From positions 22,815 through 86,814 of IMG/VR virus record IMGVR_UViG_3300050026_000481: a stretch of 64,000 nucleotides of DNA; one strand, 5' to 3'. Positions 9,650 through 64,000 of the stretch are shown here, piece after piece; positions within the stretch are counted from its first letter, which is position 1, and each line of letters begins with the position of its first letter. The notes under the pieces are model-generated. The model searched no databases. It saw only the letters and a program-made list of their open reading frames with translations, and was not told where the DNA came from. The stretch comes from a virus. The position numbers and the translations under genes are program-made.

Positions 9650-9744
9650 CAGTACTGAAAGGTTCAACAAGCAAACCTGAGAAAATAGTAGTTAAGAAAA
9701 AATGCTTTGTGAGGGTGGCATTAAAGAAGTTGAGAAGGTCATAA
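9646..9744 (+). CDS. Tiny basic protein
   Basis: 32 aa, very Lys/Arg-rich (KPEKIVVKKKCFVRVALKKL). It starts inside the stop of the previous gene (ATGA) and ends within the following terminator. It may be translated; function unknown. Confidence 0.35.
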   Translation: MTVLKGSTSKPEKIVVKKKCFVRVALKKLRRS

Positions 9745-9758
9745 AGCCTTCTCTTTTT
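9732..9758 (+). terminator. Intrinsic terminator
   Basis: GAGAAGG (9732-9738) pairs with CCTTCTC (9747-9753), eight-base loop, then TTTTT. It closes the unit that contains the surface protein at 8225. Confidence 0.75.
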
Positions 9759-9778
9759 AATATTACAAGGAGATACTA

Positions 9779-10966
9779 ATGGTAAATCATTCAATGGTGT
9801 ATTTTGTATCAGGAGATTCGTATTCAGACCTTAACGCGCTTAAGAGCGCTGGAATAGTGGACTTACATTTCGTCATCCACGGCGGCGGCAGCTCAGCGCC
9901 TACAAGTGTAGTATCCGACTGCAACGCCGCAGGGATGTCACCCATTCTAAACAACGGAAATGATGGTTCTGCAGGATGGGACGGCTCAGACAGTTACAAT
10001 GCAAACCTAGCCGCACAAGGCTGGCACGCTGTTGGTGGGGAATCAGAGCAAGCGCCCGAGATTGATTCTATCATGAATCATTTAATCTTTCTTGACTATG
10101 GCGGCGAAGGGACTGGCGGTGGGACCAACGACGATGTGTGGGCAGCTACACACTCAGCGCCAGTTCATGACCACGGCTGCGCAGGCTACTACGAGACCTA
10201 CGATGGTTCATCTAATTTTTGGGGATGGGGTACTATAGGCCACAGCCTGCTCGACTGCAAAGCTCATGGCGTCAAAGAAATCGGCATAATGGTTGGCACA
10301 TGGATGATTAACCATAGTTCAGCGCAGGACTACATCACCCTCGCGCAGAATATGGAATCTAACGGAATTACCTGTGCAGGGATAGGTGTCTGGGGCGGCT
10401 ACGGAAACAACGCGAATAACGTCTACAATACTTTCGCTTCATGGTACAAACAGTGGCAGGCAATCTGGCCGCCGGAAACACGCACGATGAAAGAACGTTA
10501 TACTCCCGGTCCAGGACCTGCACCCCCGGCACCAACAACCCTCACCTTCGCCTCAGCCCCCACCGCCTGCTCGCAAGGCGTAGGCAGTCTCGATGTCTTT
10601 GTCGAAGGCTCTGATGGCGCACTATGGCACGGTTATCCCACTACAACAACCTGGAAATGGGAAACTCTTTTTGGTACCATAACGTCCGCACCAGCGGCAA
10701 CATACCGCGCTAACGGCCTGGACGTCGTCGCACGCGGCAGCGACGGTGCGCTCTGGTACCGCCACATGCCAGCACCGCCACCATTTGCATGGGACCCCTG
10801 GATATCTCTTGGTGGTGCGATACTGAAGGGTACAGGCCCTACCATTACATCAAGAGACGCGGACAGCCTCGACGTCTTTGTAATCGGCACCGATTCGGCC
10901 CTTTACCGTAAATCCCTTTCCGGTTCGGTCTGGTCCGCATGGGTAAAGGAGGCAACAAAGGCGTAA
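9779..10966 (+). CDS. TIM-barrel-like protein with lectin-type propeller
   Basis: 395 aa; AAGGAG precedes the ATG. Residues 1 to about 240 look like a barrel-type hydrolase (LKSAGIVDLHFVIHGGG, MNHLIFLDYGGEG, VKEIGIMVGTWMINHSS). A Pro/Gly linker (PGPGPAPPAPTT) leads to a C-terminal propeller of three repeats of the type LDVFVEGSDGALWH, LDVVARGSDGALWYR and LDVFVIGTDSALYRK. This is a tectonin/PLL-type sugar-binding propeller. The same domain ends the cysteine protease at 22731. It is probably a glycan-binding, virion-linked or lysis protein. Confidence 0.6.
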   Translation: MVNHSMVYFVSGDSYSDLNALKSAGIVDLHFVIHGGGSSAPTSVVSDCNAAGMSPILNNGNDGSAGWDGSDSYNANLAAQGWHAVGGESEQAPEIDSIMNHLIFLDYGGEGTGGGTNDDVWAATHSAPVHDHGCAGYYETYDGSSNFWGWGTIGHSLLDCKAHGVKEIGIMVGTWMINHSSAQDYITLAQNMESNGITCAGIGVWGGYGNNANNVYNTFASWYKQWQAIWPPETRTMKERYTPGPGPAPPAPTTLTFASAPTACSQGVGSLDVFVEGSDGALWHGYPTTTTWKWETLFGTITSAPAATYRANGLDVVARGSDGALWYRHMPAPPPFAWDPWISLGGAILKGTGPTITSRDADSLDVFVIGTDSALYRKSLSGSVWSAWVKEATKA

Positions 10967-11130
10967 TGACCAAAAAAAGGCCGTGCCAGTGTGAAAATTG
11001 TACTAGAATCAATATAGAAGAGGGTGTTATCGTCTATGAAGACATAGGCGAAACACTCTTCTGCGTGTTGAAAGATGTGTGGGTATCCCCAGGGTACCTA
11101 TGCGATGAATTTTTCCCAAATTGTTGGTGA
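10966..11130 (+). CDS. Small Cys-rich protein
   Basis: 54 aa. It begins right after the TAA of the previous gene (shared A), with GGAGG-like AAAGGAGG further upstream. Cys residues occur as CQCENC, then single Cys at three later places. Likely metal- or disulfide-bound. Unknown function. Confidence 0.45.
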   Translation: MTKKRPCQCENCTRINIEEGVIVYEDIGETLFCVLKDVWVSPGYLCDEFFPNCW

Positions 11131-11143
11131 CCGGAGGCTAAAA

Positions 11144-11278
11144 ATGTCAAAAGGTTACAAGCCAGTTTACATCAGCCCCGACCATTATGACAGAATAATC
11201 GCCAAGGCAAAGGTTGAGGTGTGTACAAACGCGCAGGTTGGAGAGTGTCTGATACGGCAGTTCCTTGAAGAGGTTTGA
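11144..11278 (+). CDS. Small ribbon-helix-helix-like protein
   Basis: 44 aa; GGAGG at 11133-11137. The pattern KPVYISPDHYDRIIAKA (strand then helix) and AQVGECLIRQFLEE (second helix) fits an RHH fold. It is a likely small DNA-binding regulator. Confidence 0.5.
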   Translation: MSKGYKPVYISPDHYDRIIAKAKVEVCTNAQVGECLIRQFLEEV

Positions 11279-11281
11279 GAA

Positions 11282-11671
11282 ATGCCCAACAAATGCCCCC
11301 ACTGCAAAGGCCTAGTAGATAACCCCCGATACGTCACCTGCAGCCACTGCCGGCAGAAGGCAGCCGCTGCCACGAGAAGGCGGCGGGATGCACGTAAGGA
11401 TGCAGGAAAGTGTTCAATTTGTGGGGTAGCAAAAGCAGATGACGGTTTCATTCGGTGCCTGACCTGTAGAGAAAAAGACAGGAGTTACCGCCCGCGTCGA
11501 AGGCCTGAGTTCAAACATGAGCCAAGGCATTCGGTAAACGCAAAAGTCCAAATTAAGACTGAGTTTATAGAGCTGCTTGAGGGAAAGGCGGCAGAGAAAG
11601 GTGTGAGTAAACAAGTATTGTTTGAAGAGTTGATTGATAAGTACATTGAGAAGGTTGTGGTGTGGACGTGA
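11282..11671 (+). CDS. Zinc-ribbon protein with C-terminal RHH-like domain
   Basis: 129 aa. The N-terminal 75 residues hold two zinc ribbons (CPHCKG/CSHCRQ and CSICGV/CLTCRE) of the same type as the N-termini of the HNH proteins at 1683 and 14398. The HNH core is absent. A segment VNAKVQIKTEFIELLEGKAA followed by VSKQVLFEELIDKYIEK looks like a ribbon-helix-helix or similar helix pair. So the DNA-grip module of a mobile nuclease seems to have been recruited by a regulator. Confidence 0.55.
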   Translation: MPNKCPHCKGLVDNPRYVTCSHCRQKAAAATRRRRDARKDAGKCSICGVAKADDGFIRCLTCREKDRSYRPRRRPEFKHEPRHSVNAKVQIKTEFIELLEGKAAEKGVSKQVLFEELIDKYIEKVVVWT

Positions 11672-11859
11672 CTTTTTATTGTTCCACGTGTAATAAACAG
11701 ATTTCAGACATGCATCAAACGTATATCGGTGGAGAAATCCTCTGCCAACTCTGCGCAGACAAATTAACCCGCCACTGGTATGAGAGTTGGGGATTCATAC
11801 TAGCGCTTAATAAGGATTTTACGACTGAAAAAGGCGAGGAAGAACGGCACTACGGATGA
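11662..11859 (+). CDS. Small zinc-ribbon protein
   Basis: 65 aa from GTG 11662. It has CSTCNK and CQLCADK, a LIM/ribbon-like four-Cys site. A Trp-rich helix and an acidic tail follow. Member of the small-ribbon set described at 18659-21989. Confidence 0.5.
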   Translation: MDVTFYCSTCNKQISDMHQTYIGGEILCQLCADKLTRHWYESWGFILALNKDFTTEKGEEERHYG

Positions 11860-11993
11860 GCTTAATATGCAAACGGGAAGAATCAAAGCACTACAACTAC
11901 CAATGCGCCAAAGGCTACACTGGGCTCGATAAGGAAATGATACGAAGGTACTGTAAAGATTGTTTACGCGAGCAAGCGGCAGAGAAAGAGTAA
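11856..11993 (+). CDS. Small Cys-containing protein
   Basis: 45 aa starting in the stop of the previous gene (ATGA). Cys at positions 5 and 17 and CKDC near the end could bind one zinc. Unknown function. Confidence 0.45.
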   Translation: MSLICKREESKHYNYQCAKGYTGLDKEMIRRYCKDCLREQAAEKE

Positions 11994-12155
11994 ATGACAG
12001 GACATTATCATCCGTGTGTAAACTGCACTAACGCACAAGACGCGTTCTATCAAGATATGTTCTATTGCGCGGCAAGGAACAGACAGATTCCAATTAGAGA
12101 AGTAATGACCGGCTGTGAGTATTACGAACGTAGATTGGATAAGGAGATGGTTTAA
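11994..12155 (+). CDS. Small Cys-containing protein
   Basis: 53 aa starting directly after the previous TAA. It has CVNC early, FYCAARN in the middle and GCEYYERR at the end: a four-Cys layout also seen at 16259, 19898 and 26061. Probably zinc- or redox-binding; function unknown. Confidence 0.45.
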   Translation: MTGHYHPCVNCTNAQDAFYQDMFYCAARNRQIPIREVMTGCEYYERRLDKEMV

Positions 12156-12356
12156 ACGTCACAAGACGAAGTAGAATCCATACTCAAACTAACCAACCGC
12201 TCTATGTCCGCCAAAGAGATAGCTATTATACTAGGCGCGAATCCTAATACCACACAGCACAACCTCAAGTTTCTCACCAAAGCCGGCAAAGTTCACTGCT
12301 GGCGGCCGCGGATGTGGGGTAGGACTAGTCATCATGTGTACCGTATTAAGATGTAA
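12156..12356 (+). CDS. Winged-helix protein, possible ACG start
   Basis: 66 aa if read from ACG 12156, with AAGGAG at 12141-12146. The first ATG in frame (12204) would cut off the first helix. The N-terminus SQDEVESIL lines up with TQDEMYTALL of the ATG-started homologue at 18465, so translation from ACG, or a mutated start, is likely. A helix-turn-helix (MSAKEIAIILGANPNTTQHN, LKFLTKAGKV) and a wing follow. It is a likely DNA-binding protein. It overlaps the next gene. Confidence 0.5.
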   Translation, partial: TSQDEVESILKLTNRSMSAKEIAIILGANPNTTQHNLKFLTKAGKVHCWRPRMWGRTSHHVYRIKM

Positions 12357-12675
12357 CGATTGCCGTTTAGCACAGCACGATGGTAAGAAGCTGCGGTGTA
12401 CAGAGACTGGTACATTCATCAGTCCGTTTGCCACCGTCTGCCATAAGTTCCAGCCGCGGGGGAAGAATACGATAGGCAGTGGCCTCATAAGAATCCTGAG
12501 AGACAAAGAAGGCCGCAGCGACAAGGAAAAAGGCGGCATAACTAAAGAAGACTTAAAAGAAGCGCAAGAATCAACGAGTAAATTCGCTAAGGTGCTCGAA
12601 AAGAATAAAGAGAAAATGGAAGAGGCATTCAAGTCACTTAGAATAGACGATGAGGATACAGAATCTGAGGAATAA
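12334..12675 (+). CDS. Zinc-site protein with helical tail
   Basis: 113 aa. The N-terminal 45 residues hold Cys at CNDC, RCTETG and VCHKF, the layout of the small Cys proteins nearby. The rest is a charged helix (KEDLKEAQESTSKFAKVLEK) with an acidic end. It overlaps the preceding gene by 23 bases. Unknown function. Confidence 0.5.
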   Translation: MCTVLRCNDCRLAQHDGKKLRCTETGTFISPFATVCHKFQPRGKNTIGSGLIRILRDKEGRSDKEKGGITKEDLKEAQESTSKFAKVLEKNKEKMEEAFKSLRIDDEDTESEE

Positions 12676-14397: not shown

Positions 14398-15384
14398 ATG
14401 CCAACGTGCAAACAGTGTGATAGGGTACTAGTAACAAAGGCTACCGGTAGACCTAGAAAGTATTGTGAGGGGTGTCTACTTATAGTTAAAGCAGAACAGG
14501 CCCGGGTTAGACACATTAAAAACAAGAAACCGAAAACGTGTTTATCCTGTGGCGCACGTTTCACACAGGTCGGGCGTACTAAGTATTGTGATACTTGCCG
14601 GCAAGTGGTCTGTGTAAAATGCCATAGACCGAAAGAGCACGATGAGTACAAAACCTGCCTAGCATGCCGCAACGTTACGCGCAAATGGGGTAAGAACAAC
14701 CCAGAATACTTTCAAAAACGCGATGAAACAAAACGCGCCAACCGACGCGCGCAAGGGTTGTGTCCGAAATGCGGAAAGCCACGGGAATCTGAACAGTACG
14801 CAACTTGCAAGGCATGTCGAGAACGCGGGCGCGTATGGAATGCAACTTACGAATTGAAACACCCGGGATACGCGGCAGCCAACACACGCACATGGAAACT
14901 TATTGCAAAGCAGAAAGAAGGCCGCTGTTCATCGTGCGGCCGACCCTGTGAGGATTCCGAGTACAACACCTGCCGCTACTGCCGCAGCCGCAAGAAAGCA
15001 CAGAGGCACAACCGCCGCGCAGCCGCTAACGGCAACGGCGGCCGACATACGGCCGCGGACGAACGCGAACTCTTCAGCGCGCAGGACTTCAAATGCTTCT
15101 ACTGCAACCAACCCCTCTTCAAAACCCTCAACCCGGACACGAGACATATAGAACACATTAAATCAATATCAAACGGCGGCAGCAACGCGGCTTTTAATAT
15201 CGTCCGTTCTTGCGACTTATGCAATAACGACAAAGTAAGCAAATATAACGATGACGCTCCTGCTCTTCTTAATGCTCTAGCAGATAAAGGCACGATAACC
15301 GACGCAGAACTCAAGAAGAGTTTGATTGATTTATCCGCGGCGCTTAACGAGAACCTTATTTTACGTGTTTGGCGAGGTGAATAG
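14398..15384 (+). CDS. HNH endonuclease with array of zinc ribbons
   Basis: 328 aa. At least four CxxC ribbons in a row are seen (CKQCDR/CEGC, CLSCGA/CDTC, CVKCHR/CLAC, CPKCGK/CKAC, CSSCGR/CRYC). Then comes the NGNGG spacer and an HNH core (CFYCNQ, HIEHIKSISNGG, CDLCNN). Roughly 60 residues of helix follow. The ribbon array probably reads a long DNA site. The stop codon overlaps the GTG of TerL, so the nuclease is tightly fitted upstream of TerL, a common homing position. Confidence 0.85.
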   Translation: MPTCKQCDRVLVTKATGRPRKYCEGCLLIVKAEQARVRHIKNKKPKTCLSCGARFTQVGRTKYCDTCRQVVCVKCHRPKEHDEYKTCLACRNVTRKWGKNNPEYFQKRDETKRANRRAQGLCPKCGKPRESEQYATCKACRERGRVWNATYELKHPGYAAANTRTWKLIAKQKEGRCSSCGRPCEDSEYNTCRYCRSRKKAQRHNRRAAANGNGGRHTAADERELFSAQDFKCFYCNQPLFKTLNPDTRHIEHIKSISNGGSNAAFNIVRSCDLCNNDKVSKYNDDAPALLNALADKGTITDAELKKSLIDLSAALNENLILRVWRGE

Positions 15385-16244
15385 TGCCAAGCGACACCCT
15401 AGAAGCAGAAATAAAACGCCTGGAGGCCGCAGGCCGCCGTCGCCTCTCTAAGAAAGAAGCCACTAGATACAACCTCCACAAAAACGACCTAAAGCGTTTT
15501 GCTCGTTATCTCGGCATAAAAAAGCTGGACGAATGGCAGGAGAAGGTTTTAGACAGCAAAAGCAGCCGGATAATCTTGAACTGCAGCCGCCAGGCCGGCA
15601 AGTCAACGGTCACCGCAGTCCTCGCCGTCCACCACGCTATTTTTAAACCTGATAGCATGGTAATCGTCATCTCTAGAATCGAAGCGCAAAGCCTTGAGGT
15701 GTTTAAGAGAATGTCAAACTATTATAAGGAAGTCTCATACGCGCCTCACGCCACAGAAGACACCTCCCATTCACTAAAACTTTCCAATGGTTCCCGAATA
15801 ATCGCCCTATCCGGCCAGCAACCTGACAGCCTGCGTGGATACGCGGGGGTATCCCTACTCATAATTGATGAAGCGAGCAGGGTTTTGGAAGAAACCTACA
15901 ACGTCGTGAGGCCAACTTTGGCCGTCAGCTCTGGGCGGGTTATTTTGCTTTCGACTCCACATGGCCGCCGAGGATTCTTTTTCGAAAGTTGGATGGAAGC
16001 AACAGACCGATATAGGGATAACCTTGAAGGCTGGGAATCCGCCAGCGTAACGGCTGATGAGATACCGCGTATAAAACCCAGCTTCCTTGAGCAAGAAAGG
16101 AAGAAGTATCCGGAGTGGTTTTATCGCCAGGAGTACATGTGCGAGTTTCAAGATAATATATCAAATATTTTTAGGTCGGTCCATGAAGCCTTCGAGCACG
16201 TTGACGCCGACGGCAACGAGTGGCAGTTCGATATCGGGTTGTAG
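15384..16244 (+). CDS. terL: Terminase large subunit, N-terminal ATPase part
   Basis: 286 aa from GTG 15384. Walker A is CSRQAGKST (67-75), Walker B LLIIDEAS (158-165) and the coupling motif LLSTPHGRRG (188-197). This is the motor half that drives DNA into the capsid. A full TerL would continue with an RNase-H-like nuclease, but the frame stops after residue 286. The nuclease half is encoded at 17716. Between them lie a small Cys gene, a pseudoknotted RNA and a double-HNH gene. Two separate polypeptides or RNA splicing are both possible. Confidence 0.85.
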   Translation: MPSDTLEAEIKRLEAAGRRRLSKKEATRYNLHKNDLKRFARYLGIKKLDEWQEKVLDSKSSRIILNCSRQAGKSTVTAVLAVHHAIFKPDSMVIVISRIEAQSLEVFKRMSNYYKEVSYAPHATEDTSHSLKLSNGSRIIALSGQQPDSLRGYAGVSLLIIDEASRVLEETYNVVRPTLAVSSGRVILLSTPHGRRGFFFESWMEATDRYRDNLEGWESASVTADEIPRIKPSFLEQERKKYPEWFYRQEYMCEFQDNISNIFRSVHEAFEHVDADGNEWQFDIGL

Positions 16245-16577: not shown

Positions 16578-17735
16578 ATGGTGGTTTGTTCTAACTGTCA
16601 TAAGGGTTTTGAAGAAGATGGATTTAAAACGTGTCCGGCCTGTCGTGCAAAGCGCCGCGAATATGACCGACGACCAGACCAAGTTGAGAAGCGACGCGAA
16701 TATCTCAGCCGACCGGAGGTGCACGAACATAAGTGCGAATATTACCGTGAATATCAGCGCGAATATCGGAAGCGCCCCGGGGTTAAAGAACGGGAGCGAC
16801 GAAACCGGCAGAAACCAGAAAACAAAGAACGCGTAGCTGCGTATGGCTATATATGGCGACAGAAACCAGAAAATAAAGAATTGCAGTTAGAAGGGACAAG
16901 AAAATATAGGGCATTACATCTTGAAGAATGTAGGAAACGTGACCGTGAATTGAAACGTGAGAAACGGAAACAACCAGAATTTCTCGAAAAACTGAGAGCT
17001 ATACAGCGTAAATCTTATTGGAAAAATAAAGAACAGCGCAATAAACTTGGTCGTGAGATACGAATAACATTAGCTGGTAGATACACAGAAGCGAAACACA
17101 GCGCAAAGCGCCGAGGTATACCATTCGAACTCACACAGGAACAACATAGCACAATCATAAGGCAACCGTGTTTTTGGTGCGGCGTTACGCCAAATGGTTC
17201 CGATGAAACCTTAAACGGAGTTGACAGAATAAACCACGATAAGACGATAGGTTACGTATTAGATAACGTAATACCCGCGTGTACGGGGTGTAATAAAGGC
17301 AGAAACACCATGACAGTTGATGAGGTAGTAGGATACGTCGAACAAGTTTTCCAGTGGCAACACCTTAGAACGTTAACCGGCACACCATTACAGCGTCGCA
17401 ATGGAAAAGTAGAACTCAGTATGCGTGATTACTACGGAAAGTATAAGGGAAAAGCGAAGAAGCGCAATATTCCTTTTGAATTATCGTTTGAAGAGTTTTT
17501 TAAGACAGTAAAAAGACCATGTTATGTGTGTGGGTATCATCATTTCGAAGACAAAGGACATACTGCAAACGGCATAGACCGATTTAATAACGCGGTTGGT
17601 TATACAGTTGATAACAGCCTTCCGGCATGCAAATGGTGTAACGTATGGAAAGGTGAGGGCACATATGCTGAACTACTCGACCGATTTACGCGGATACGCG
17701 CGGGGTTAAGGAAGAATGCCAATCAACCAAGATGA
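16578..17735 (+). CDS. Double HNH endonuclease between TerL halves
   Basis: 385 aa. An N-terminal zinc ribbon (CSNCHK/CPACRA) and a long Arg/Lys/Glu helix with repeats (RRPDQVEKRREYLSRPEVHE) lead to two complete HNH cores. The first has CFWCGV, LNGVDRINHDKTIGY and CTGCNK (about 195-245). The second has CYVCGY, ANGIDRFNNAVGY and CKWCN (about 315-370). Each is preceded by the same KRRGIPFEL/KKRNIPFEL segment, so the nuclease domain was duplicated. It overlaps the TerL nuclease gene by 20 bases. This is a likely homing nuclease that targets an intact TerL gene. Confidence 0.8.
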   Translation: MVVCSNCHKGFEEDGFKTCPACRAKRREYDRRPDQVEKRREYLSRPEVHEHKCEYYREYQREYRKRPGVKERERRNRQKPENKERVAAYGYIWRQKPENKELQLEGTRKYRALHLEECRKRDRELKREKRKQPEFLEKLRAIQRKSYWKNKEQRNKLGREIRITLAGRYTEAKHSAKRRGIPFELTQEQHSTIIRQPCFWCGVTPNGSDETLNGVDRINHDKTIGYVLDNVIPACTGCNKGRNTMTVDEVVGYVEQVFQWQHLRTLTGTPLQRRNGKVELSMRDYYGKYKGKAKKRNIPFELSFEEFFKTVKRPCYVCGYHHFEDKGHTANGIDRFNNAVGYTVDNSLPACKWCNVWKGEGTYAELLDRFTRIRAGLRKNANQPR

Positions 17736-18465
17736 TTTCGGAAGAAGCAGACGGCCATATGTTCAAGGGTTAGAACGCGTCCTCACCGACGAAGACATCT
17801 TTAAAATCCACGGCATCCAAAACGTCCAAAACAAACCGGCTGAAGAAGAAAAGAAACTCACGCCAATCGAAGCCAAGAATATAATAGTCGGCATCGACCT
17901 CGGTAAGGAAGTAGACCGCACGGTAATCGTTGTCATCCAGCCCACCGGCGAGTACGAAAAACCTATCTACCAAATCCACCGCATCATTCCCGTCGCCCTT
18001 GGCACATCCTACCCGGATATAATCCGTGGACTAGTCGAACTAGACAAACATTTGAGAGAACTAAATGCCAAGGAAATCAGTTATGTGATAGACGCAGGCG
18101 GCGCGGCAGGGGTGGTTGACGCGCTGGAGGAAGAGCTGCCGATGGCTGACGTCTACCGCGTCCACTTGACTGCTGGCCTCAACGTAAACATGACCGGCAT
18201 GAAAATTAGTTTACCGAAAAGAGAAATGGTAACCACTCTTGCTCGCGTCCTCGATGAGCATAGGATTGACGTGGTAAGCACCCGAGATGAAGGCGTCGTG
18301 CTACTTGAGTCAGAACTTAACAATTATCAAATGAAAATAATGGATAGTGGCTACGACAAATACGAAGCCGGCACGGGTCACCATGATGATGCAGTCTGCG
18401 CTCTTGCCGAGGGCCTCTGGTTTTCCGAACATGAGGCGGCAATGGGGCAGGCGAGGCTATTCTGA
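17716..18465 (+). CDS. terL: Terminase large subunit, C-terminal nuclease part
   Basis: 249 aa. This is an RNase-H-like headful/cohesive-end nuclease domain. Acidic metal ligands appear as VGIDLGKEVDRT (Asp61), YVIDAGG (Asp126) and GHHDDAV (Asp224/225). The first 55 residues have no clear match and could be the linker after the split. It starts at an ATG inside the end of the HNH gene. With the ATPase half at 15384 it would make a complete terminase. Confidence 0.85.
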   Translation: MPINQDDFGRSRRPYVQGLERVLTDEDIFKIHGIQNVQNKPAEEEKKLTPIEAKNIIVGIDLGKEVDRTVIVVIQPTGEYEKPIYQIHRIIPVALGTSYPDIIRGLVELDKHLRELNAKEISYVIDAGGAAGVVDALEEELPMADVYRVHLTAGLNVNMTGMKISLPKREMVTTLARVLDEHRIDVVSTRDEGVVLLESELNNYQMKIMDSGYDKYEAGTGHHDDAVCALAEGLWFSEHEAAMGQARLF

Positions 18466-22730: not shown

Positions 22731-24029
22731 ATGACTGAAAAAATGTTTCATGAAATAAACGGACGAAAGTACTATATGGGTTGTAAGCGCGACCCACCGC
22801 ATAAGGACGCGCCGCTTTTACTAACCCGCGAACAAGAGTTAACCTTGCCAGCGAGTTATATAATCAAAGACCTAACGCCCGTGGGCGACCAGGGGAACGA
22901 AGGGAGCTGCACCGGAAACGCTGGCGACAACGTGTTTAAAATCCGTGACGCCATGGTAAACGGAACGTTTGTTAACGGCGCACGACAGCAGATTTATCAA
23001 TGTGCTCTTGCAAAAGATGGCAACCCCTTCCAGGATGTGGGCTCTAGTCTTAGCACGATAGCGTGGGTCCTCCAAAACAAAGGCGTCGCACCTGAGTCAG
23101 AGTTTCCATACACCGGAGGAATGAAGGGCGCTGTCCCTGCATCTGTCTTAGCAGACGCCGCGAAACACGAGGCCACAAAAGAACTACGCCTCGACGCGAA
23201 TGACGGAAGTACAACTATAGCAAATATAAAAGCAGCGATATCGCCGAACTCGGTTATTCAAAGTAGTTATCCGGTAATGTACGGGTACACTGTATTCGAA
23301 TCGTTCTTTAACACGGGTGGCGATGGCAACATGCCCGCGCCTTCTGGCGGGGTAGCAGGCGGACATGCGAATGTTTTCATTGGTTACGATGACAACCACA
23401 CTGGAAACTACGACGGAAGTAAGGGCGCGTTCCTCAGTAAAAACAGTTGGGGAACCGGCTTCGGCGCGAGCGGGTATTGGTGGATGCCGTATAATTACTT
23501 CCTTGACACAAACGACGGCGTAGGGGATTGCTGGGCAGTAATAAATACCTCGGATTTCAACCCGACGCCAGGGCCAACACCAACACCCCCAAACCCGACG
23601 GGTGTCACCTTTGTCAGCTCGCCCGCCGCCTGCTCTTGGGACACCAATCGCCTTGACCTCTTCGTAGTCGGCTCAGATAACGCCCTCTGGCACCGCGACA
23701 GGGTAGACACTGATTGGTCGGATTGGAGTTCCCTCGCAGGTACGTGTACAAGTGCACCAGCAGCGGTAGCACGAACCGGGCAAATTATCGACATCGTTGT
23801 CCGCGGCTCTGACTCAGCGCTGTGGCACCTACAGTGGACAGGCACCGCATGGGCAAAGTGGACGTCTCTCGGCGGCGTGGTGCTGAAGGGCACAGGGCCT
23901 ACTATTATATCCAAAGACGTAAACAGTCTCGATGTGTTCGTAATCGGCACTGATGATGCCCTCTACCAAAAGACACTTACAGGAACAACGTGGTCCGGGT
24001 GGGTGCAGGTTTCGGCTAAGATTAAGTAG
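22731..24029 (+). CDS. Papain-like cysteine protease with lectin-type propeller
   Basis: 432 aa. The C1-type catalytic set is intact: Gln54 and Cys60 in VGDQGNEGSCTGNA, His212 in GGHANVFIGYD and Asn238 in LSKNSWGTGFG. No signal peptide is seen. A linker PTPGPTPTPPNPT (278-290) joins a three-repeat tectonin/PLL-type propeller (LDLFVVGSDNALWH, IDIVVRGSDSALWH, LDVFVIGTDDALYQ). The same propeller ends the protein at 9779. The enzyme probably cleaves surface or cell-wall protein while the propeller holds glycans, either on the virion or during release. Its N-terminal half closely matches the 1398-aa protein at 58267. Confidence 0.8.
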   Translation: MTEKMFHEINGRKYYMGCKRDPPHKDAPLLLTREQELTLPASYIIKDLTPVGDQGNEGSCTGNAGDNVFKIRDAMVNGTFVNGARQQIYQCALAKDGNPFQDVGSSLSTIAWVLQNKGVAPESEFPYTGGMKGAVPASVLADAAKHEATKELRLDANDGSTTIANIKAAISPNSVIQSSYPVMYGYTVFESFFNTGGDGNMPAPSGGVAGGHANVFIGYDDNHTGNYDGSKGAFLSKNSWGTGFGASGYWWMPYNYFLDTNDGVGDCWAVINTSDFNPTPGPTPTPPNPTGVTFVSSPAACSWDTNRLDLFVVGSDNALWHRDRVDTDWSDWSSLAGTCTSAPAAVARTGQIIDIVVRGSDSALWHLQWTGTAWAKWTSLGGVVLKGTGPTIISKDVNSLDVFVIGTDDALYQKTLTGTTWSGWVQVSAKIK

Positions 24030-55618: not shown

Positions 55619-58270
55619 GTGACACTTCCGTTTGGTGCTATTGCAGTAAGTCCGACGCTAACCTTACCAAGATATAATGATTGGGAGGGTGTTACTTCTG
55701 ACGGTAGTTATTACTACTGCACTTCACGGTGGAATAGCCCTAGTGCATATGCAGCGGCAATATACAAATATGATATGAGTTGGAACCTCGTAGCAGCCGT
55801 TAATTGTAGTACGGCGATAGGCTGTAATGACCTTTCGGGGATTGACTATTGGAACGGGTATCTGTATGTTGCCTGTGTTAACATCAATACTAGTAGTCCA
55901 TATAATAACACCAAAACAGGTATAGCGGTATTTAATTCCTCAAACCTTAGTCTTGTTGCCTACCACGAGTTAGGCCCCTATTTTTTAACTCTTGGGGGTG
56001 CACAAGCTGAGTGCTCAGGGGTTGGTGTAGACCATGTAAATGGGATAATATACGCCTCTTCTTATGGTTACAGTGGACTTATTCGTAAATTTAGTTCAGC
56101 AGATTTTAGCTTCATTGGTTACATTACTACAAACCCTGAGTTTGGAACGTCACCGGCGAATATAGCGTTACAAGACATCAAATATTACAACGGTTTTTTG
56201 TATGCTTCATATTCTACTTTTGGTGGCGCGGGCGCGCCGACTACAACAGGCGGCGTTATACGAATGGATACCTCTGGTGCAAGCCAGACCAATGCGATAG
56301 GGCCTATAACCGGCACTACGGGGTTTGAAGTCGAGGGTCTTTTTGTAGGTAGTGGGGGGCTTCACGTACTTACACAAATTACAAACTCCCCCTCAGCAGG
56401 CTATTGGGCTGGGCTAGTTTACACGTTTACCATCTCTACTACCCTAACGCTTAACGCTGATACTACAACACCTACAACAGGCCAAACGGTAAACCTTACC
56501 GCAACGTTAGATACTAATGGTGGCGCACTACTTAGCGGGCAAACCGTCGCGATTACTATTTATAACGCAAGCGGAACGCTAGTTGATAGTGCTAGTGGCG
56601 CTACTAATTCTAATGGACAGTTTACGACATCATATACTTTTACAACGGCAGGGGTATACAACTGTTATTCAGGGTACACGGGCGTTTCCCCTTACACCTC
56701 AGCAAACGCCACCATGCTGCAGATTACAACAGAAACCACTATTGTCGTCGCCGGAGTTACCGCTACCGCTTCTATTTCTGCAAATATCCCAACAGTAACC
56801 GCATTGACCACGAGCCCTACCGCTGTAACACTCACTGCCGATACTTCAGCCCCATCAACAGCTCAGCAGGTACACTTTACTGCGACGTTAACGGCCGCGG
56901 ATGGAACTAAGTCACCCCTCCAAGGGCAATCTATTGTAATTAGTTATTATGATTCAAGTAATAATCTTTTAGGGAGTAGTACAGGTAATACCGACGGTAA
57001 CGGACACTTTCCCAGTACATACACATTTAGTACTGCCGGACAATACACCTGTTACGCCGCGTTTACGGCATCAGCACCGTATACTGCATCAGTTAGTGCA
57101 GGTACGGTCGTCATCTCATCCGCGCCCCCCGCTACTGTATCAAAAGTCGGTAGTTTCAACACCTCATCTGGTGCGGCCTCCAACACAATATCAGGCCTCG
57201 GTTTCACGCCAACCGCCCTAATTATGTGGGCTGGTAGCCAAAGCGCGGTAGGGTGGACAGCTAACACCGCCTTGTGTGACATTAGTTTTTCCATTGGGTT
57301 CTCTGCCAACAACAATGGCGCGATGGAATATGGTTCCGTTTACAACTCCGGTGAAGAATACGTGACTACTACAAGCGCAGAAAAGCGAGGCCACGCCGCG
57401 TCGGCGCTCTACTTGTCAGATTACGGAGGCACACCGCAACTTACCGCTTCTTCTGTAACATTTTCAAGCTCTAACGGCGGTCAGTTCGTCGTTAACTGGA
57501 CAACCCACGCCGCTGCATATACGGTCTACTGGCTTGCGTTAGGCGGCACGACCGGCTCGGCAGTAAAACAGTGGCAAGCGCAGGCGGCTACCGGCGTTCA
57601 GAGTGTAACCCTTTCAGGCACCACGTTCAAACCTGATATTGTGATTCATGCCGGGATAGAATACGCGACAGCGCCGCCAAGTAACACAACTGACCAGCGT
57701 CTATGGCTCGGCGCTATGGACAGTACCGGAAACCAATGGGCAGAATATATGTATAGTGCTAATGGAGCCGCTACGACTGTTGAGGCTAGCATTCAACTCG
57801 CCGACCATTGTCTCGTTGGACTCAACGGGGGCACAGGTGTAGGAACTAAATATTATATCATGACTACTGTTAGTGCAGGTGCTAATTGGGTGTCCATTTA
57901 CAACGCAGATTCCTATTTTTCGGGGGGGCAAACAGTTGAGATAAGCAACTCCACAGGGACGGTGCACGAGGCGAAAATAGTTTCCGGTGCATCGGGTAAC
58001 ATGCTTATGTTCACCACCACCCTCGCTAATGGCTACAACTCCGGCGATGCGTGGGTTGCACCATTACAAAACAATACCACAGCCCAAAAGTCGGCAACAT
58101 TTTCCTCGATGAATTCTAATGGGTTTTCGGTTAACTGGGATGTGCAAACTGACCCTGGTTTATATTATATATTTAGCCTCTGTTTGCAGGGTGGCTCATA
58201 TACCGTCGGCACCAAGGCAAAAACAAGTCAAACCACAGCAGGTACTGATACGGTGGTGACCACATCATGA
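55619..58270 (+). CDS. Mosaic fibre protein with propeller and Ig-like domains
   Basis: 883 aa from GTG 55619 with AGGAG upstream. Residues 1 to about 275 look like a beta propeller (DLSGIDYWNGYLYVACVN, GVGVDHVNGIIYASSYGY, LQDIKYYNGFLYASYSTF). Two Ig-like domains follow (275-365 and 395-495; both with GNxxxxYTF and AGxYxCY). From about 505 a domain with VSKVGSFNTSSGAASNTISG and ALIMWAGSQSAVGW begins. This last domain is repeated in the partial protein at 62468. A receptor-binding fibre is likely. Confidence 0.65.
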   Translation: MTLPFGAIAVSPTLTLPRYNDWEGVTSDGSYYYCTSRWNSPSAYAAAIYKYDMSWNLVAAVNCSTAIGCNDLSGIDYWNGYLYVACVNINTSSPYNNTKTGIAVFNSSNLSLVAYHELGPYFLTLGGAQAECSGVGVDHVNGIIYASSYGYSGLIRKFSSADFSFIGYITTNPEFGTSPANIALQDIKYYNGFLYASYSTFGGAGAPTTTGGVIRMDTSGASQTNAIGPITGTTGFEVEGLFVGSGGLHVLTQITNSPSAGYWAGLVYTFTISTTLTLNADTTTPTTGQTVNLTATLDTNGGALLSGQTVAITIYNASGTLVDSASGATNSNGQFTTSYTFTTAGVYNCYSGYTGVSPYTSANATMLQITTETTIVVAGVTATASISANIPTVTALTTSPTAVTLTADTSAPSTAQQVHFTATLTAADGTKSPLQGQSIVISYYDSSNNLLGSSTGNTDGNGHFPSTYTFSTAGQYTCYAAFTASAPYTASVSAGTVVISSAPPATVSKVGSFNTSSGAASNTISGLGFTPTALIMWAGSQSAVGWTANTALCDISFSIGFSANNNGAMEYGSVYNSGEEYVTTTSAEKRGHAASALYLSDYGGTPQLTASSVTFSSSNGGQFVVNWTTHAAAYTVYWLALGGTTGSAVKQWQAQAATGVQSVTLSGTTFKPDIVIHAGIEYATAPPSNTTDQRLWLGAMDSTGNQWAEYMYSANGAATTVEASIQLADHCLVGLNGGTGVGTKYYIMTTVSAGANWVSIYNADSYFSGGQTVEISNSTGTVHEAKIVSGASGNMLMFTTTLANGYNSGDAWVAPLQNNTTAQKSATFSSMNSNGFSVNWDVQTDPGLYYIFSLCLQGGSYTVGTKAKTSQTTAGTDTVVTTS

Positions 58271-61200
58271 ATTTTAGACTACCTGAAAAGCTACCTGAAG
58301 GTAAGCCTATTAGACTAATCAAATACCCTAGTAAGGAATACCCCCACGGGTTAGGATTTGTTCGCGGGCCCCCACAACCAGACGCCCCGCGACTCCTCAC
58401 CGAAGAGGAACACGCTAAACTTGCGCCATCAATAATACTTGAGGACCAAACACCAGTAGGAGACCAAGGGAGTTTTGGGAGTTGCACAGCGAACTGTGGC
58501 GAAAACGCCTTAAAAATTAGTACGGCCCTACAAACGGGGAACTATGTTAATGGTTCCCGGATGCAGCTTTATAGAGACGAGCGCGCGACCTACACCGTCT
58601 CCGGAGCCGGGGTACTGAATACCAATAGTAATGTCGCAGGCGTCACCGTAAATAGCTGGGGGGTTTATTCGTCCCCTGTAATCACCAATGGATGGGTCTG
58701 TTACGGTGGGCTGGATGGGGGTCTTTATTATGTGGCTACCGACGGGACAGCGGCGTGGGCTGGGCTCGGCCTCAACCCCGTAGTATCATCAGTCGTTGCC
58801 AATAACAACACAATTTTCGTTTGTACGTGTATGATGGGCAACAACGAAATTCAGATATACAGCCTTCCGGTCGATAGTACTACCCCCCCAACAGCAGTAG
58901 GGGGGACTGTAATTAACTCCCCCTCTGCATATAGTAATGGTGAATTTTCTTCACCCGCAGTCGATGCTAATGGGTTAGCGTATGTAACAAATGCAGGGCG
59001 TGTCGAGTTAATCGAATACATCCCAGATGAGAGAATATACGGTATTGCAGGGTTGTGCCCTACTGACAGCTCATGGCTGTCTACGCCCGCTGTTACTGAT
59101 GACTACATGGCGTATGTTGCTGGAAGTAATGGTAAAGTCTATGCTACTACTTTTCTTGGTACCCCCCAAGTAGTGTGGACCTACGCGACGGGTGCGGCCC
59201 CTGGCGGTGCGGTCATTATGCCCACCCCTGCCCTTATTAATGGCGTTGTGTATGTAGGAAGCTATGATAACAAGGTCTACGCTATTAATGCTACCACCGG
59301 AGCCAAGATATGGAGCTTTACGACCGGTGGCGACGTGCTTTCGCGTCCTACTATCTCAAACGGTGTGCTCTACGTAGGAAGTTACGATAACAACCTTTAC
59401 GCCCTTAATGCCGCCACCGGTGCGTTGTTATGGAGTTACACGACCGGAGGTGCAGTACACTCATCCCCCTGTGTTTATAACGGTGTCGTGTATGTGGGAA
59501 GCAATGATGGTAAGGTTTATGCTATTAACGCTACGACTGGGGCTGAAGTGTGGAACTACGAGACCGGAGGCGCAGTACACTCATCCCCCGCGGTTAGTGA
59601 CGAGCCATTAAACGGGGTTACCACCACGTTAGTCTACGTGGGAAGTGATGATGGTACCTTTTATGTCCTTGACGCCGCCACGGGTTATAGTGTGTGGGGC
59701 GTAACAACCTGTGATGTGGGCTCATCAATTGTAGTTACTGCGCAGTGCCTTGGGACCGGGATAATCCCCGAAACCCAACGGCCGTATATCCCCCAAAACC
59801 TAGATAATCCAGTAGTATCGCGCACTGGTGCGGTGTACGCTAATACAGGAAGTGTATATGCTTCACTTGCGCCAGCAACCACGATTGCGAATATACAAGC
59901 GTCTATCGCTGCGAATTATCCAGTGATGATTGGTTTCGACGTTTACTATAGTATTTATCACGTTGGTAGCGATGGGCAACTTAGAACCCCGCATCCTGTC
60001 GCGCTTACCGCCTATGCACCAGTAGGCGCGACTACGTTATCAGTATCAGATACGTCTCCATTTACAGCGCCAGATTTAGTCTACATTAACAGTGTAGTTG
60101 CGGGGGTATCGCAGGCTACAATAGAGCGAGAAATTGTGTCTATTGGCGAGAATACAATAGAGATTACCCCTCCTTTACCTTCAGGCTGGTTCTTGACCCA
60201 GGGTTATACAACGACCGACTCAAACGGTAATTACCAGTTTAATGAGGTAGGATATGGGTCAGGAAGTTCATATTATCATCGTACGATTTACGATGGCGAT
60301 GCTACACACTCATCAGCGATGAGTAACACCGTGCAGATAACCTGCCCAAGTAGTACGCTGGAAGAGGAACCCTTGGAGCCTACCACCACCACGACGTCAC
60401 AGCTTACTCTTGCCGCCTCCACTAACACCCCCGCAGTAGCTGCCGCGTATACGCTCTCCGGTACACTTAAAGACCAAAGCAGCGCCCCGATTGCAGGTGC
60501 CACCGTCCTTCTTCAGCTTGGGATGATACAGCCGTTTGGTGGAGCCGTCGCATGGGGCACTATGAGTGTCAACATAGAAGAGTGTATAATCGGCGGTCAC
60601 GGCGTGTGTATTATTGGCTACGACAATACCCACACGTGCCACGACGGGACAACCGGCGCATTTTGGGTTAAAAATTCGTGGGGCACTGGATGGGGTGCCC
60701 CAGGCGGCATAAGTCCAGCGGGCTATTTCTGGTTGCCGTATAACTATTTCTCTGTCCCTACTGGTACAGATATGGATACGGGGGCCATAACGGGTTATGC
60801 CGTAGGCGAAGCGTGGAACGTCAATGCAGTCGCCCCAGCAGTACCAACGCCACCCCCTACGCATCTCGCCCTTACTACCTCTGCCAGCGACCCCGATATA
60901 AGCAACGTAAATCAAACATTCACCCTCTCAGGCACACTATTTGCCGACAACGTTACACCTATTGCCGGTATGACTGTTACCCTCCAGAGTTCCGTCAACC
61001 CTGCTGATAATACATTATGGAACACCATCGCGAGCGTCGCGAGCGACACGAATGGTAATTATACGTTCAGTCACAGCGAGTCAGTTATCGGCGCGTATTA
61101 TTACCAAACGACCTGCGCGGGGAATATTGATTACGCGAGTTCAGTAAGTAACATGATATACGTGGGGCTTGTATCTTCAACAGCCCCAGCACCACCGTCG

Positions 61201-62463
61201 CCCGTATCACCAATCGTAACCACACTCACTATTTCAGCACCCTCTTCAGCCTATGTCAACCAACCCATCACTATCACGGGCACGCTCACCAATTCGTATG
61301 GTATTGGTGTTTCGGCACAGACTATCCAACTCCAGGACTCTACCGATGACGCCACGTGGAACAACGTGACGACCGCGGTGACCGATACAGGTGGTAACTA
61401 TACATTCAGCCACGTCGAGTCAGCCGCTACGGTCTACTACTACCAAACAATCTACACAGGTAGCGCGGCTTATGCGGACTCAACAAGCCCGAGCGTCGCG
61501 GTTTCCTTCTCAGTTCCACCCCTAAGTACGCTCGCGCCAACGGCAGTATTTGCGACCACATGCGGCCAAACGAGTTCGGCGGTCGCGGCAGGCGCCCGCA
61601 TTATGGTGGGTGCAAGTGACGGCGTGAACTATGGGGTGGTTGCAGAAACAGGAAAGGGTGGAGTTACCATTAGCGGTGGGACACCCACTGTAGAATACAA
61701 CTACAATAACACAACATCAGCCATTATCCTCAGCAATAACGATACGGGCACCTCTGAATGCGCGGCCACGATGGGGAATTTTGCGGCGGGTTCTTTTGAT
61801 ATTGTGTGGGGTACAGATACAAAAACGGATTCAACGTTAATCAATTACATTGCCTTTAGCTCACCTTTGCCCGGGGCAAGCGTTCAATGGTCGCAGACTA
61901 CCGTGCCCACCACAACGAGCGCCGCTATTGCGCTCGTTGGGGAGTACGCGTACGAGGGTATCCAGATAACGCCTACGATTATCCCTACATCATCAAGTAC
62001 ATCTTATTCACCCACTGATTCGTTTACTTCATCATGGACACAGACAACCGTCCCGGGCGCGATGAGCCCCGTATACCCCCCGCATGTATACATAAGCAGA
62101 CAATGGTCGCAGAGTACTGTTCCAAATACATCAAGTGGAACCGTCGCGCTGACGGGAGAATACGCGGGCGTCACATGGGCGCAAACGACTACCCCGGGTA
62201 CTATTAGTACAGTATATACCCCGGCCCCCTCCACCACCGGCAACGTGCTTTGGCAGCAGGTTATGGTTCCAGATACTACAATCGATGTATCTACCCTCCT
62301 TGTAGGTCCTGGGGGGCTACAAGAAACAACGCCGACCACCACAAGTGAATCCATTGTACCAACGTTTATAATAACCGACGAAGACGGGGCAATCGTAACT
62401 AATTGTATTGTTGAATTTATTAATTGGCCAGTTTCTAGCCTAGTTATAGAAGGAGCCACCTAA
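58267..62463 (+). CDS. Papain-like protease interrupted by PQQ propeller and Ig-like domains
   Basis: 1398 aa. The N-terminal 105 residues match the protease at 22731, with Cys73 in VGDQGSFGSCTANC. At about residue 106 the match stops and a PQQ-type propeller begins, with near-identical blades NGVVYVGSYDNKVYAINATT, NGVLYVGSYDNNLYALNAAT and NGVVYVGSNDGKVYAINATT. The protease resumes near 537 (TTIANIQASIAANYPVMIGF) and is broken again by an Ig-like stretch. It ends with His778 (GGHGVCIIGYD) and Asn803 (VKNSWGTGWG). More Ig-like repeats and WSQTTVPTT-type repeats follow. A giant virion adhesin-protease is the best guess. Confidence 0.7.
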   Translation: MNFRLPEKLPEGKPIRLIKYPSKEYPHGLGFVRGPPQPDAPRLLTEEEHAKLAPSIILEDQTPVGDQGSFGSCTANCGENALKISTALQTGNYVNGSRMQLYRDERATYTVSGAGVLNTNSNVAGVTVNSWGVYSSPVITNGWVCYGGLDGGLYYVATDGTAAWAGLGLNPVVSSVVANNNTIFVCTCMMGNNEIQIYSLPVDSTTPPTAVGGTVINSPSAYSNGEFSSPAVDANGLAYVTNAGRVELIEYIPDERIYGIAGLCPTDSSWLSTPAVTDDYMAYVAGSNGKVYATTFLGTPQVVWTYATGAAPGGAVIMPTPALINGVVYVGSYDNKVYAINATTGAKIWSFTTGGDVLSRPTISNGVLYVGSYDNNLYALNAATGALLWSYTTGGAVHSSPCVYNGVVYVGSNDGKVYAINATTGAEVWNYETGGAVHSSPAVSDEPLNGVTTTLVYVGSDDGTFYVLDAATGYSVWGVTTCDVGSSIVVTAQCLGTGIIPETQRPYIPQNLDNPVVSRTGAVYANTGSVYASLAPATTIANIQASIAANYPVMIGFDVYYSIYHVGSDGQLRTPHPVALTAYAPVGATTLSVSDTSPFTAPDLVYINSVVAGVSQATIEREIVSIGENTIEITPPLPSGWFLTQGYTTTDSNGNYQFNEVGYGSGSSYYHRTIYDGDATHSSAMSNTVQITCPSSTLEEEPLEPTTTTTSQLTLAASTNTPAVAAAYTLSGTLKDQSSAPIAGATVLLQLGMIQPFGGAVAWGTMSVNIEECIIGGHGVCIIGYDNTHTCHDGTTGAFWVKNSWGTGWGAPGGISPAGYFWLPYNYFSVPTGTDMDTGAITGYAVGEAWNVNAVAPAVPTPPPTHLALTTSASDPDISNVNQTFTLSGTLFADNVTPIAGMTVTLQSSVNPADNTLWNTIASVASDTNGNYTFSHSESVIGAYYYQTTCAGNIDYASSVSNMIYVGLVSSTAPAPPSPVSPIVTTLTISAPSSAYVNQPITITGTLTNSYGIGVSAQTIQLQDSTDDATWNNVTTAVTDTGGNYTFSHVESAATVYYYQTIYTGSAAYADSTSPSVAVSFSVPPLSTLAPTAVFATTCGQTSSAVAAGARIMVGASDGVNYGVVAETGKGGVTISGGTPTVEYNYNNTTSAIILSNNDTGTSECAATMGNFAAGSFDIVWGTDTKTDSTLINYIAFSSPLPGASVQWSQTTVPTTTSAAIALVGEYAYEGIQITPTIIPTSSSTSYSPTDSFTSSWTQTTVPGAMSPVYPPHVYISRQWSQSTVPNTSSGTVALTGEYAGVTWAQTTTPGTISTVYTPAPSTTGNVLWQQVMVPDTTIDVSTLLVGPGGLQETTPTTTSESIVPTFIITDEDGAIVTNCIVEFINWPVSSLVIEGAT

Positions 62464-62467
62464 CACA

Positions 62468-64000
62468 ATGACGTTCTACTCTAAAGTCGGCAACTTTAAC
62501 ACCTCATCAGGCGCAGCCACCAATACCATAACCGGCCTCGGCTTTACGCCGGTTGCCCTTATTATGTGGGTCGGCAGTCAGAGCGCGACCGGATGGACTA
62601 AGGGAGACGGTATGTTTAGTATCGGCTTTGCTGCTAATAATAATGGCACAATGCAGTATGGTTCTATCAGCGACGGACACGAAGATTATGCGGCGGGAAA
62701 TACCACCATGGTTGCATCCGGTGCTTATGCACTTTATGCTCGTAATTGGGTTCCTACTACAGAACTACTGGCTAGTGGCGTTACGTTTTCTAGTGGTCAG
62801 TTCGTCGTGTCGTGGACTACCCACGCCGCAGCGTTTACCGTCTATTATCTTGCATTAGGTGGCTCAGACATCACCGGCGCCGGCGTGGCAGCATGGACGT
62901 GCCCTACGGCTGTAGCCCCGGCGACTAAGAGCGTAACAGGTCTTGGTTTTCAACCTACCTGCGTTATGCACATTGGAGCTGGGTCTGGCGGCCAATCAAC
63001 TAGTAATGGTCACTGGCTTGGTGCTATGGATGCTAATGGTAATCAGTGGGCGAAAGGTGAGGTCGATATTGGGAACAATCCTGATTTTGTTAAGCGTGTA
63101 CAGATTACCGACCATTGTCTTGTTGGACAGTCAACCACCGCGAGCACCATTAATAAATCGGCAACGTACACCTCAATGGATTCGGGGGGTTTTACCGTAA
63201 GCTTTGATGTGCAAACCGATACTACTGCATACCCTATGTATTCTCTCTGTTTAGCGTGTAGCGCCAAGGTTGGCCATTGGTCGAAAACTGGACAGACGGC
63301 AGCGGTTACCGATACCATTTCAGGGCTTGGTTTTACTCCTTCCGCGGTACTAACGGTTAACGACAGCTACGCAGCATCATCAGCAGTACAAGCTGGATGG
63401 CGTTGTAACGTCGGTGCGAGCGACGGTACAAACTTTGGCACAGTATCGCTAACTGATAAAGATGCTTCCTACCCAACCATTGTGTATAATTATAATGATT
63501 CAACGAACACCATTGTAGTTAACGATAGTGACTCAGGCACAAGTAACGTCGTGGCCCCAGTAAAAAACTTTAGTTCTGGGCAGTTTCAAGCGGTGTGGGG
63601 CACAGATAGCGCAACCACGGCGACGCAGATTTGTTATATTGCTCTTGGAGCTGCAAGTGCCGCTCCAGCATCGTGGACAGAAACGTCAGCATCCAACGTA
63701 GCGGCGGCCACTATCGCTCCGACGCTCGCCACATCTTCAACTATTACATTACCGTCACCTCAAAACGTAGCCGCTGCGATTGTCGCTATAAGCACAGCGT
63801 TAGGCGTTACACAACCAACCCCGCCGAATGTAGCTGCCGCCACAATCACCCCCACGATAGAAACCTCAGAAACTATCACACTTAGCACACCCCCCAATGT
63901 AGCTGCTGCTACTGTCGCTATAACAAAGGATTTAGCAGTCACACAATCAACTCCATCAAACGTAGCCGCTGCTACTGTCGCGATAACAAAGGATTTATCA
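62468..64000 (+). CDS. Mosaic fibre protein, 3' end outside window
   Basis: At least 511 aa, open to the right edge from ATG 62468. It begins with the same domain as residues 505-760 of the protein at 55619 (SKVGNFNTSSGAATNTITGL, ALIMWVGSQSATGW). A second related domain follows (residues about 275-395), similar to residues about 1080-1190 of the 1398-aa protein (AGWRCNVGASDGTNFGTV against ARIMVGASDGVNYGVV). From about 403 it changes to SWTETSASNVAAATIAPTLA repeats as in the 1004-aa protein. So three neighbours share its modules. Confidence 0.7.
   Translation, partial: MTFYSKVGNFNTSSGAATNTITGLGFTPVALIMWVGSQSATGWTKGDGMFSIGFAANNNGTMQYGSISDGHEDYAAGNTTMVASGAYALYARNWVPTTELLASGVTFSSGQFVVSWTTHAAAFTVYYLALGGSDITGAGVAAWTCPTAVAPATKSVTGLGFQPTCVMHIGAGSGGQSTSNGHWLGAMDANGNQWAKGEVDIGNNPDFVKRVQITDHCLVGQSTTASTINKSATYTSMDSGGFTVSFDVQTDTTAYPMYSLCLACSAKVGHWSKTGQTAAVTDTISGLGFTPSAVLTVNDSYAASSAVQAGWRCNVGASDGTNFGTVSLTDKDASYPTIVYNYNDSTNTIVVNDSDSGTSNVVAPVKNFSSGQFQAVWGTDSATTATQICYIALGAASAAPASWTETSASNVAAATIAPTLATSSTITLPSPQNVAAAIVAISTALGVTQPTPPNVAAATITPTIETSETITLSTPPNVAAATVAITKDLAVTQSTPSNVAAATVAITKDLS
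63676..64000 (+). repeat. NVAAATIAPT-type coding repeats, second array
   Basis: About four to five units encode PNVAAATVAITKDLAVTQST-like repeats. The last two units are nearly identical at DNA level (GTAGC(T/C)GCTGCTACTGTCGC then ATAACAAAGGATTTA), so they duplicated recently, in contrast to the older array at 45440. Continues past the edge. Confidence 0.6.

Follow-up and report, generated by a model that had tools for sequence, protein, structure and literature searches.

A predicted viral papain-family protease interrupted by a beta-propeller and a permuted Ig domain, and apparently nested in a repeat of a tail-region protein

A gene of a tailed virus, P0001, appears from its sequence to encode a papain-family (C1) protease that is complete but divided into three colinear blocks. 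A beta-propeller separates the first two of these, and a second insert, which includes a circularly permuted Ig domain, separates the last two. The reading that we prefer, and consider moderately probable, is that P0001 is a probably active C1 protease in which modules were inserted in loops at the rim of the cleft, giving a multi-module surface protein, and that it is in turn nested in the third of a series of repeats for which we coined the label KVG in this analysis. P0001 is known from one contig.

Results

Genomic setting

The window analysed is a stretch of 64,000 nucleotides of an IMG/VR virus record (Table 1). The last 145 bases of the record (window 63856-64000, inside a repetitive gene) agree at 98.6% with its first 145; the ends of the contig thus overlap by 145 bp, the assembly nearly closes, and the record probably represents a nearly complete genome. 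Genes for a portal, a capsid, a terminase, a prohead-protease-like and a Dit-like protein are present on the record and indicate a tailed virus, and a gene that looks tape-measure-like in its sequence may be added to them. Relatives of the capsid and the terminase are scattered among many bacteria and some haloarchaeal viruses; a methanogen host is a tentative lead. Upstream of P0001 lie head-tail genes, and tail genes lie beyond it, across the contig ends. Its start overlaps the stop of the upstream gene (ATGA, 58267-58270), by which it is translationally coupled, and 4 nt separate it from the next gene.

The terminase large subunit of this virus looks split (15384-16244 and 17716-18465 of the window) into two parts, one an ATPase and the other an RNase-H-like nuclease; genes for HNH-type endonucleases precede the first part and also lie between the two. 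In locus L005 the two parts are adjacent ORFs. In L107 and L108, several tail proteins have a common C-terminal motif like VRxYQPGNE or VREYQPKT.

Table 1. Features of P0001 and of the proteins compared with it; positions refer to the window except in the first line.
Feature	Residues	Position	Strand	Evidence
Analysed window		22815-86814 of the 86,814-base record IMGVR_UViG_3300050026_000481
P0002, intact C1 protease used for comparison		22731..24029	+	PF00112, E 2e-12
Upstream gene: two Ig domains, KVG repeats 1-2, first ~25 aa of repeat 3	883 aa	55619..58270	+
Beta module (~73-84 aa) in KVG repeat 2 of the upstream gene		region 57845..58096	+	filled/empty alignment
P0001 ORF: C1 protease with inserts, two Ig domains, KVG repeat remainder, W-Q-T-V-P repeats	1398 aa	58267..62463	+
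Protease block A: helix with oxyanion Gln67 and catalytic Cys73	1-107 (core ~29-107)	58267..58587	+	profile match, AF2
Oxyanion-hole Gln	67	58465..58467	+
Catalytic Cys	73	58483..58485	+
Insert 1: PQQ/BamB-type beta-propeller, eight blades by count	108-479	58588..59703	+
Protease block B: DVGSS..GTGIIPE..PY..TTIANIQ..YPVMIGF	480-577	59704..59997	+	profile match
Insert 2a: small beta module	578-645	59998..60201	+	sequence
Insert 2b: Ig C-terminal half	646-692	60202..60342	+	Ig profile
Acidic/Thr linker CPSSTLEEEPLEPTTTTTS between inserts 2b and 2c		60343..60399	+
Insert 2c: Ig N-terminal half, placed after the C-half	712 to about 750	60400..60516	+	Ig profile
Protease block C: catalytic His778 and Asn803	751-862	60517..60852	+	profile match, PF00112
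Catalytic His	778	60598..60600	+
Catalytic Asn (KNSWG)	803	60673..60675	+
Ordinary Ig domain 1	866-967	60862..61167	+	Ig profile, 104 bits (domain in the profile's seed set)
Ordinary Ig domain 2	984-1081	61216..61509	+	Ig profile, 88 bits (domain in the profile's seed set)
Remainder of KVG repeat 3	~1086-1196	61522..61854	+	alignment with G62 and L107 protein
Paralogue G62: KVG repeats 1-3 uninterrupted, runs off contig end		62468..64000	+

A papain-family core in three blocks

The first-pass annotation of the window had described this ORF as a cysteine protease domain split into three separate blocks, with the catalytic Cys, His and Asn kept and whole folds inserted between the blocks. The ORF and the three residues were found as described, and the sequence gives good support to the insertion of folds within a single catalytic domain. 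When the contig was searched by tblastn, P0001 aligned with P0002 over three segments in colinear order (P0001 aa 29-103, 483-575 and 774-852), and in P0002 the corresponding stretches are separated by few residues only. Profiles made from P0002 and 50 relatives for each block separately matched P0001 at aa 35-106 (block A, E 3.6e-17), 483-569 (block B, E 8.4e-10) and 775-830 (block C, E 1.2e-18), so the whole domain is recovered block by block. The Pfam model of the whole domain, PF00112, is above its cut-off in block C only, because of the inserts. The residues that characterize papain family C1, a Gln followed by Cys, His and Asn, occur in this order in P0001, and 31 of the 37 positions that are conserved in at least 80% of the relatives are kept, these four included, the other six being changed.

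MAFFT alignment with intact relatives placed the Cys at 73, DVGSS at 483, YPV at 551, the His at 778 and the Asn at 803; sets of 10-12 relatives were aligned with no steering row, one extra row of P0001 block B was added to larger sets, and separate block fragments led MAFFT to misplace block B. The middle block, for which a start near residue 537 at TTIAN(I)QA had been proposed, starts at aa 480 with TTCDVGSS; the protease therefore lacks no part, and aa 479 is the last residue of the propeller.

The two inserts

Insert 1 is a propeller, as had been proposed. PF13570 (E 1e-43) and PF13360 (E 3e-40) are both above cut-off in it, and its PDB matches are designed propellers and BamB. Eight blades were counted by eye from the repeat motifs, in accordance with the seven to eight W-blade repeats of PQQ/BamB-type propellers; ring closure is of low confidence in the model. 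When the P0002 family was aligned with solved relatives, the site of insert 1 fell immediately ahead of the segment that corresponds to the CxGG loop, which would place the propeller in the loop between two L-domain helices, on the S2/S3 side.

Ig-like modules had been proposed between the blocks. Insert 2 (aa 578-750) consists instead of a beta module of ~65 aa, an Ig C-half, a linker and an Ig N-half. An Ig profile made without insert 2 matched aa 646-692 with its positions 56-101 (cE 3.3e-8) and aa 712-751 with its positions 2-41 (cE 1.4e-9). Given that the C-half precedes the N-half, the Ig domain is circularly permuted, and the strand order of bacterial Ig-like domains, N-half and then C-half, is not found in this insert; it is found in the two ordinary Ig domains that follow the protease. 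When the P0002 family is aligned with solved relatives, insert 2 enters just before the catalytic His, in what is predicted to be a rim loop of the R-domain.

The resemblance of insert 2a to the beta modules in the Dit, the BppU-like protein and the upstream gene is only partly supported; two of five left-out beta-module copies were recovered (E 2e-4 and 0.005), and for this reason we make no claim of common descent for the copy in P0001. This virus has a Dit-like protein in which another beta module splits an Ig domain at the same site (aa 788-822 and 871-945), so that insert 2 of P0001 looks like a unit of such an array cut elsewhere.

This Dit-like protein, of 1350 aa (L006:8439-12491, record positions 8439-12491), has an N-terminal tail domain (aa 52-113) and a Dit C-terminal domain (1183-1234), both under cut-off, and the ~1,070 aa between these parts contain Ig, beta modules and a stretch that looks thioredoxin-like. 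This protein is a candidate giant evolved Dit.

Nesting in the third KVG repeat

The KVG repeat has no Pfam match. Its third copy is whole in two comparison proteins, G62 and a protein of another virus (L107:2281-6804). The C-terminus of the upstream gene, DVQTDPG...SLCLQGGSYTVGTKAKTSQTTAGTDTVVTTS, corresponds to aa 247-284 of G62, and its last part also to aa 260-287 of the L107 protein; the repeat resumes at P0001 aa ~1086, from where it matches aa ~286-395 of G62 and aa 291-402 of the L107 protein. The P0001 stretch scores 227 against G62 (shuffles, 41+-7). Taken alone, the 25 C-terminal residues encoded by the upstream gene reach a score of only 47, against a shuffle maximum of 47, and hence the upstream side rests on the continuous alignment with G62. 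From these alignments, the P0001 ORF would itself be nested in the third KVG repeat begun by the upstream gene, a nesting that the first-pass annotation had not described. The overlap of the two genes has no -1 slippery heptamer, and a frameshift fusion is accordingly not favoured. The second KVG repeat is filled by a beta module in the upstream gene and is empty at this site in G62; this pair, together with the split third repeat and with the ~1,070 aa between the two Dit parts of the Dit-like protein, suggests that insertion of whole modules in loops is a habit of this virus.

Structure prediction

The first-pass annotation had proposed structure prediction as a check. The protease blocks were modelled with high local confidence, and the Foldseek matches were weak or dominated by the propeller. 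The AlphaFold2 model of aa 1-876, made with 52 alignment rows, has a mean pLDDT of 59.7. For the greater part of each of blocks A, B and C the pLDDT is about 80-97 (91-95 in block A aa 51-100), for propeller blades 5-7 about 75-87 and the last blade less, and the first four blades and insert 2 are mostly below 60; the propeller was modelled without relatives because its rows broke the alignment. Propellers dominate the Foldseek matches of the full model, and a model of blocks B and C gave weak papain-family matches, the best being cathepsin B (E 0.07). Long strands modelled in blocks B and C need partners, which would fit packing between the blocks and is no proof of it.

Search for relatives

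A search for relatives with the same insertions, also proposed in the annotation, found none: the ~130 C1 relatives examined are without these inserts, an absence that is limited by the use of exact-pattern scans. The scans for C1 relatives gave 53 + 9 viral loci (some overlap), and a genome scan with block C gave 78 loci, all bacterial by record titles. No relative was confirmed when genomes were scanned with the P0002 alignment, and pattern scans for the whole of P0001, the propeller part, insert 2 and the Ig pair gave nothing confirmed. Proteins with these inserts were also absent from the whole records of 18 related viruses, and no C1 block was found in seven viral propeller loci. The spacing from Cys to His is 705 residues in P0001 and 140-335 in the relatives, as measured by motif search in reading frames where both motifs were found, one motif being missing in a minority of frames.

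Other C1 proteases of viruses carry additional sequence. In L010:4146-5219, a proline-rich insert of ~65 aa lies in a nearby loop, between the Cys helix and the next helix. The second C1 protease of a related virus (L107:10468-12462, IMGVR_UViG_3300038428_000087) has an intein with an HNH domain (PF14890 E 4.6e-16, PF13392 E 6e-5) that adjoins the catalytic Asn motif.

Discussion

In papain-fold enzymes, the CxGG loop and the loop before the catalytic His rim the active-site cleft, and both insertion points correspond to active-site rim loops in the aligned ficin and cathepsin sequences. Under the proposed mechanism, whole folded units would have entered loops of the protease, the propeller in the L-domain and the beta module with the permuted Ig domain at the rim of the R-domain; since the chain ends of propellers and of the permuted Ig are neighbours, such units could be accommodated in a loop and leave the protease in one piece. 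The unit of protease and Ig domains would itself have entered a tail-region protein, in its third KVG repeat. We infer that the three blocks fold into one enzyme and that P0001 is in or on the virion. By analogy with known systems, the inserts may serve for binding or gating and direct the protease to a substrate on the host surface, where it would trim a host-surface protein or, alternatively, a viral partner. A more elaborate proposal, which we regard as unlikely, is that the KVG domain is split over two chains and rebuilt by strand complementation, with the propeller on one rim of the protease cleft and the permuted Ig domain on the other, gating or aiming the cleavage of a host-surface protein during entry. 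The inserted protease gene would in this case begin inside the KVG domain, at the ATGA overlap, and the rebuilding of the domain by two chains would dock the protease without a covalent linkage.

The observation that P0001 is known from a single IMG/VR contig, and that no relative with the same joints was found, is what an assembly chimaera would produce, that is, fragments of different metagenomic sequences joined into a gene that does not exist. We judge this improbable, given that every joint is in frame over 1398 codons, GC and codon usage are similar across the segments, the inserts are whole modules placed at loops, both ends of the gene are tightly coupled to its neighbours, and the assembly nearly closes on itself. 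Misassembly driven by repeats was looked for at the four junctions and was not found, there being no exact repeat of at least 13 nt. Splicing of the inserts as inteins, which would leave an ordinary protease, has a precedent in the HNH-containing intein of L107, and was rejected for P0001, where the inserts are propeller and Ig folds, have no intein profile match and lack both a starting Cys/Ser and a terminal His-Asn; we give it almost no weight.

Loss of activity is a more serious objection to the preferred reading of an active protease. The ORF could be an adhesin that uses a broken, vestigial C1 fold as a scaffold, as large inserts bordering the active site and the six changed family positions might suggest; on the other hand, the three separate blocks together retain all four catalytic or oxyanion residues as well as the motifs GGH and NSWG, and block C is still above the Pfam cut-off, so we consider a dead enzyme rather unlikely, though not negligible. 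Somewhat less probable still is that the protease acts inside the infected cell, in the maturation of viral structural proteins, or as an endolysin, the inserts being passengers. Proteases of the P0002 type occur near packaging genes in relatives, and one phage C1 relative is annotated as an endolysin; in contrast, P0001 has adhesin-type modules and lies between tail-region genes, and the genome has a separate S78-like prohead protease.

If the preferred reading of P0001 as an active, nested protease is correct, two modules that exceed the protease blocks in size break up one catalytic domain, a circular permutation has arisen naturally in insert 2, and the entire unit sits in turn inside a third fold, of which filled and empty copies are present in the genome. 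P0001 would then be a clean natural case of viruses adding grips to enzymes, and it suggests as rules that inserted units have neighbouring chain ends and enter at active-site rim loops. We found no description of its domain combination in the literature. The insertion of domains is itself common and known in principle; one survey reports it in 20% of multidomain proteins (PMC13114784).

With papain family C1A (PF00112), P0001 shares the catalytic Gln, Cys, His and Asn and the order of the blocks, and it differs in that its two inserts add about 550 residues to the stretch from Cys to His; the nearest solved relative is the cysteine protease 3OIS, matched by the P0002 family profile (E 1.6e-29). 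Inserted elements restrict access to the cleft in papain-fold enzymes (PMC10380794). Clostridial C1 proteases (e.g. L119 and L160) also have extra sequence between Cys and His in the C1 domain, in their case roughly 180 aa of other sequence in which neither a propeller nor Ig halves were seen. The blade repeat and blade number of insert 1 are those of PQQ/BamB-type eight-bladed propellers (BamB, Cake9 and the PQQ protein of Haloarcula tailed virus 2), but none of the viral propeller loci examined is inside a C1 protease. In siphophages, evolved Dit proteins with inserted CBMs promote host binding (PMC10688798), and they have in common with P0001 the principle of binding-type modules placed inside a conserved fold of a virion protein; P0001 is not an evolved Dit, its host fold being a protease and its inserts a propeller and a permuted Ig domain. 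Among enzymes, the GH5 endoglucanase MtGlu5 gains in performance from a CBM that lies within its catalytic domain (PMC9063844). This nesting of a binding module resembles P0001, although MtGlu5 belongs to a different enzyme class, has one insert in place of two, and is not nested again in a third domain.
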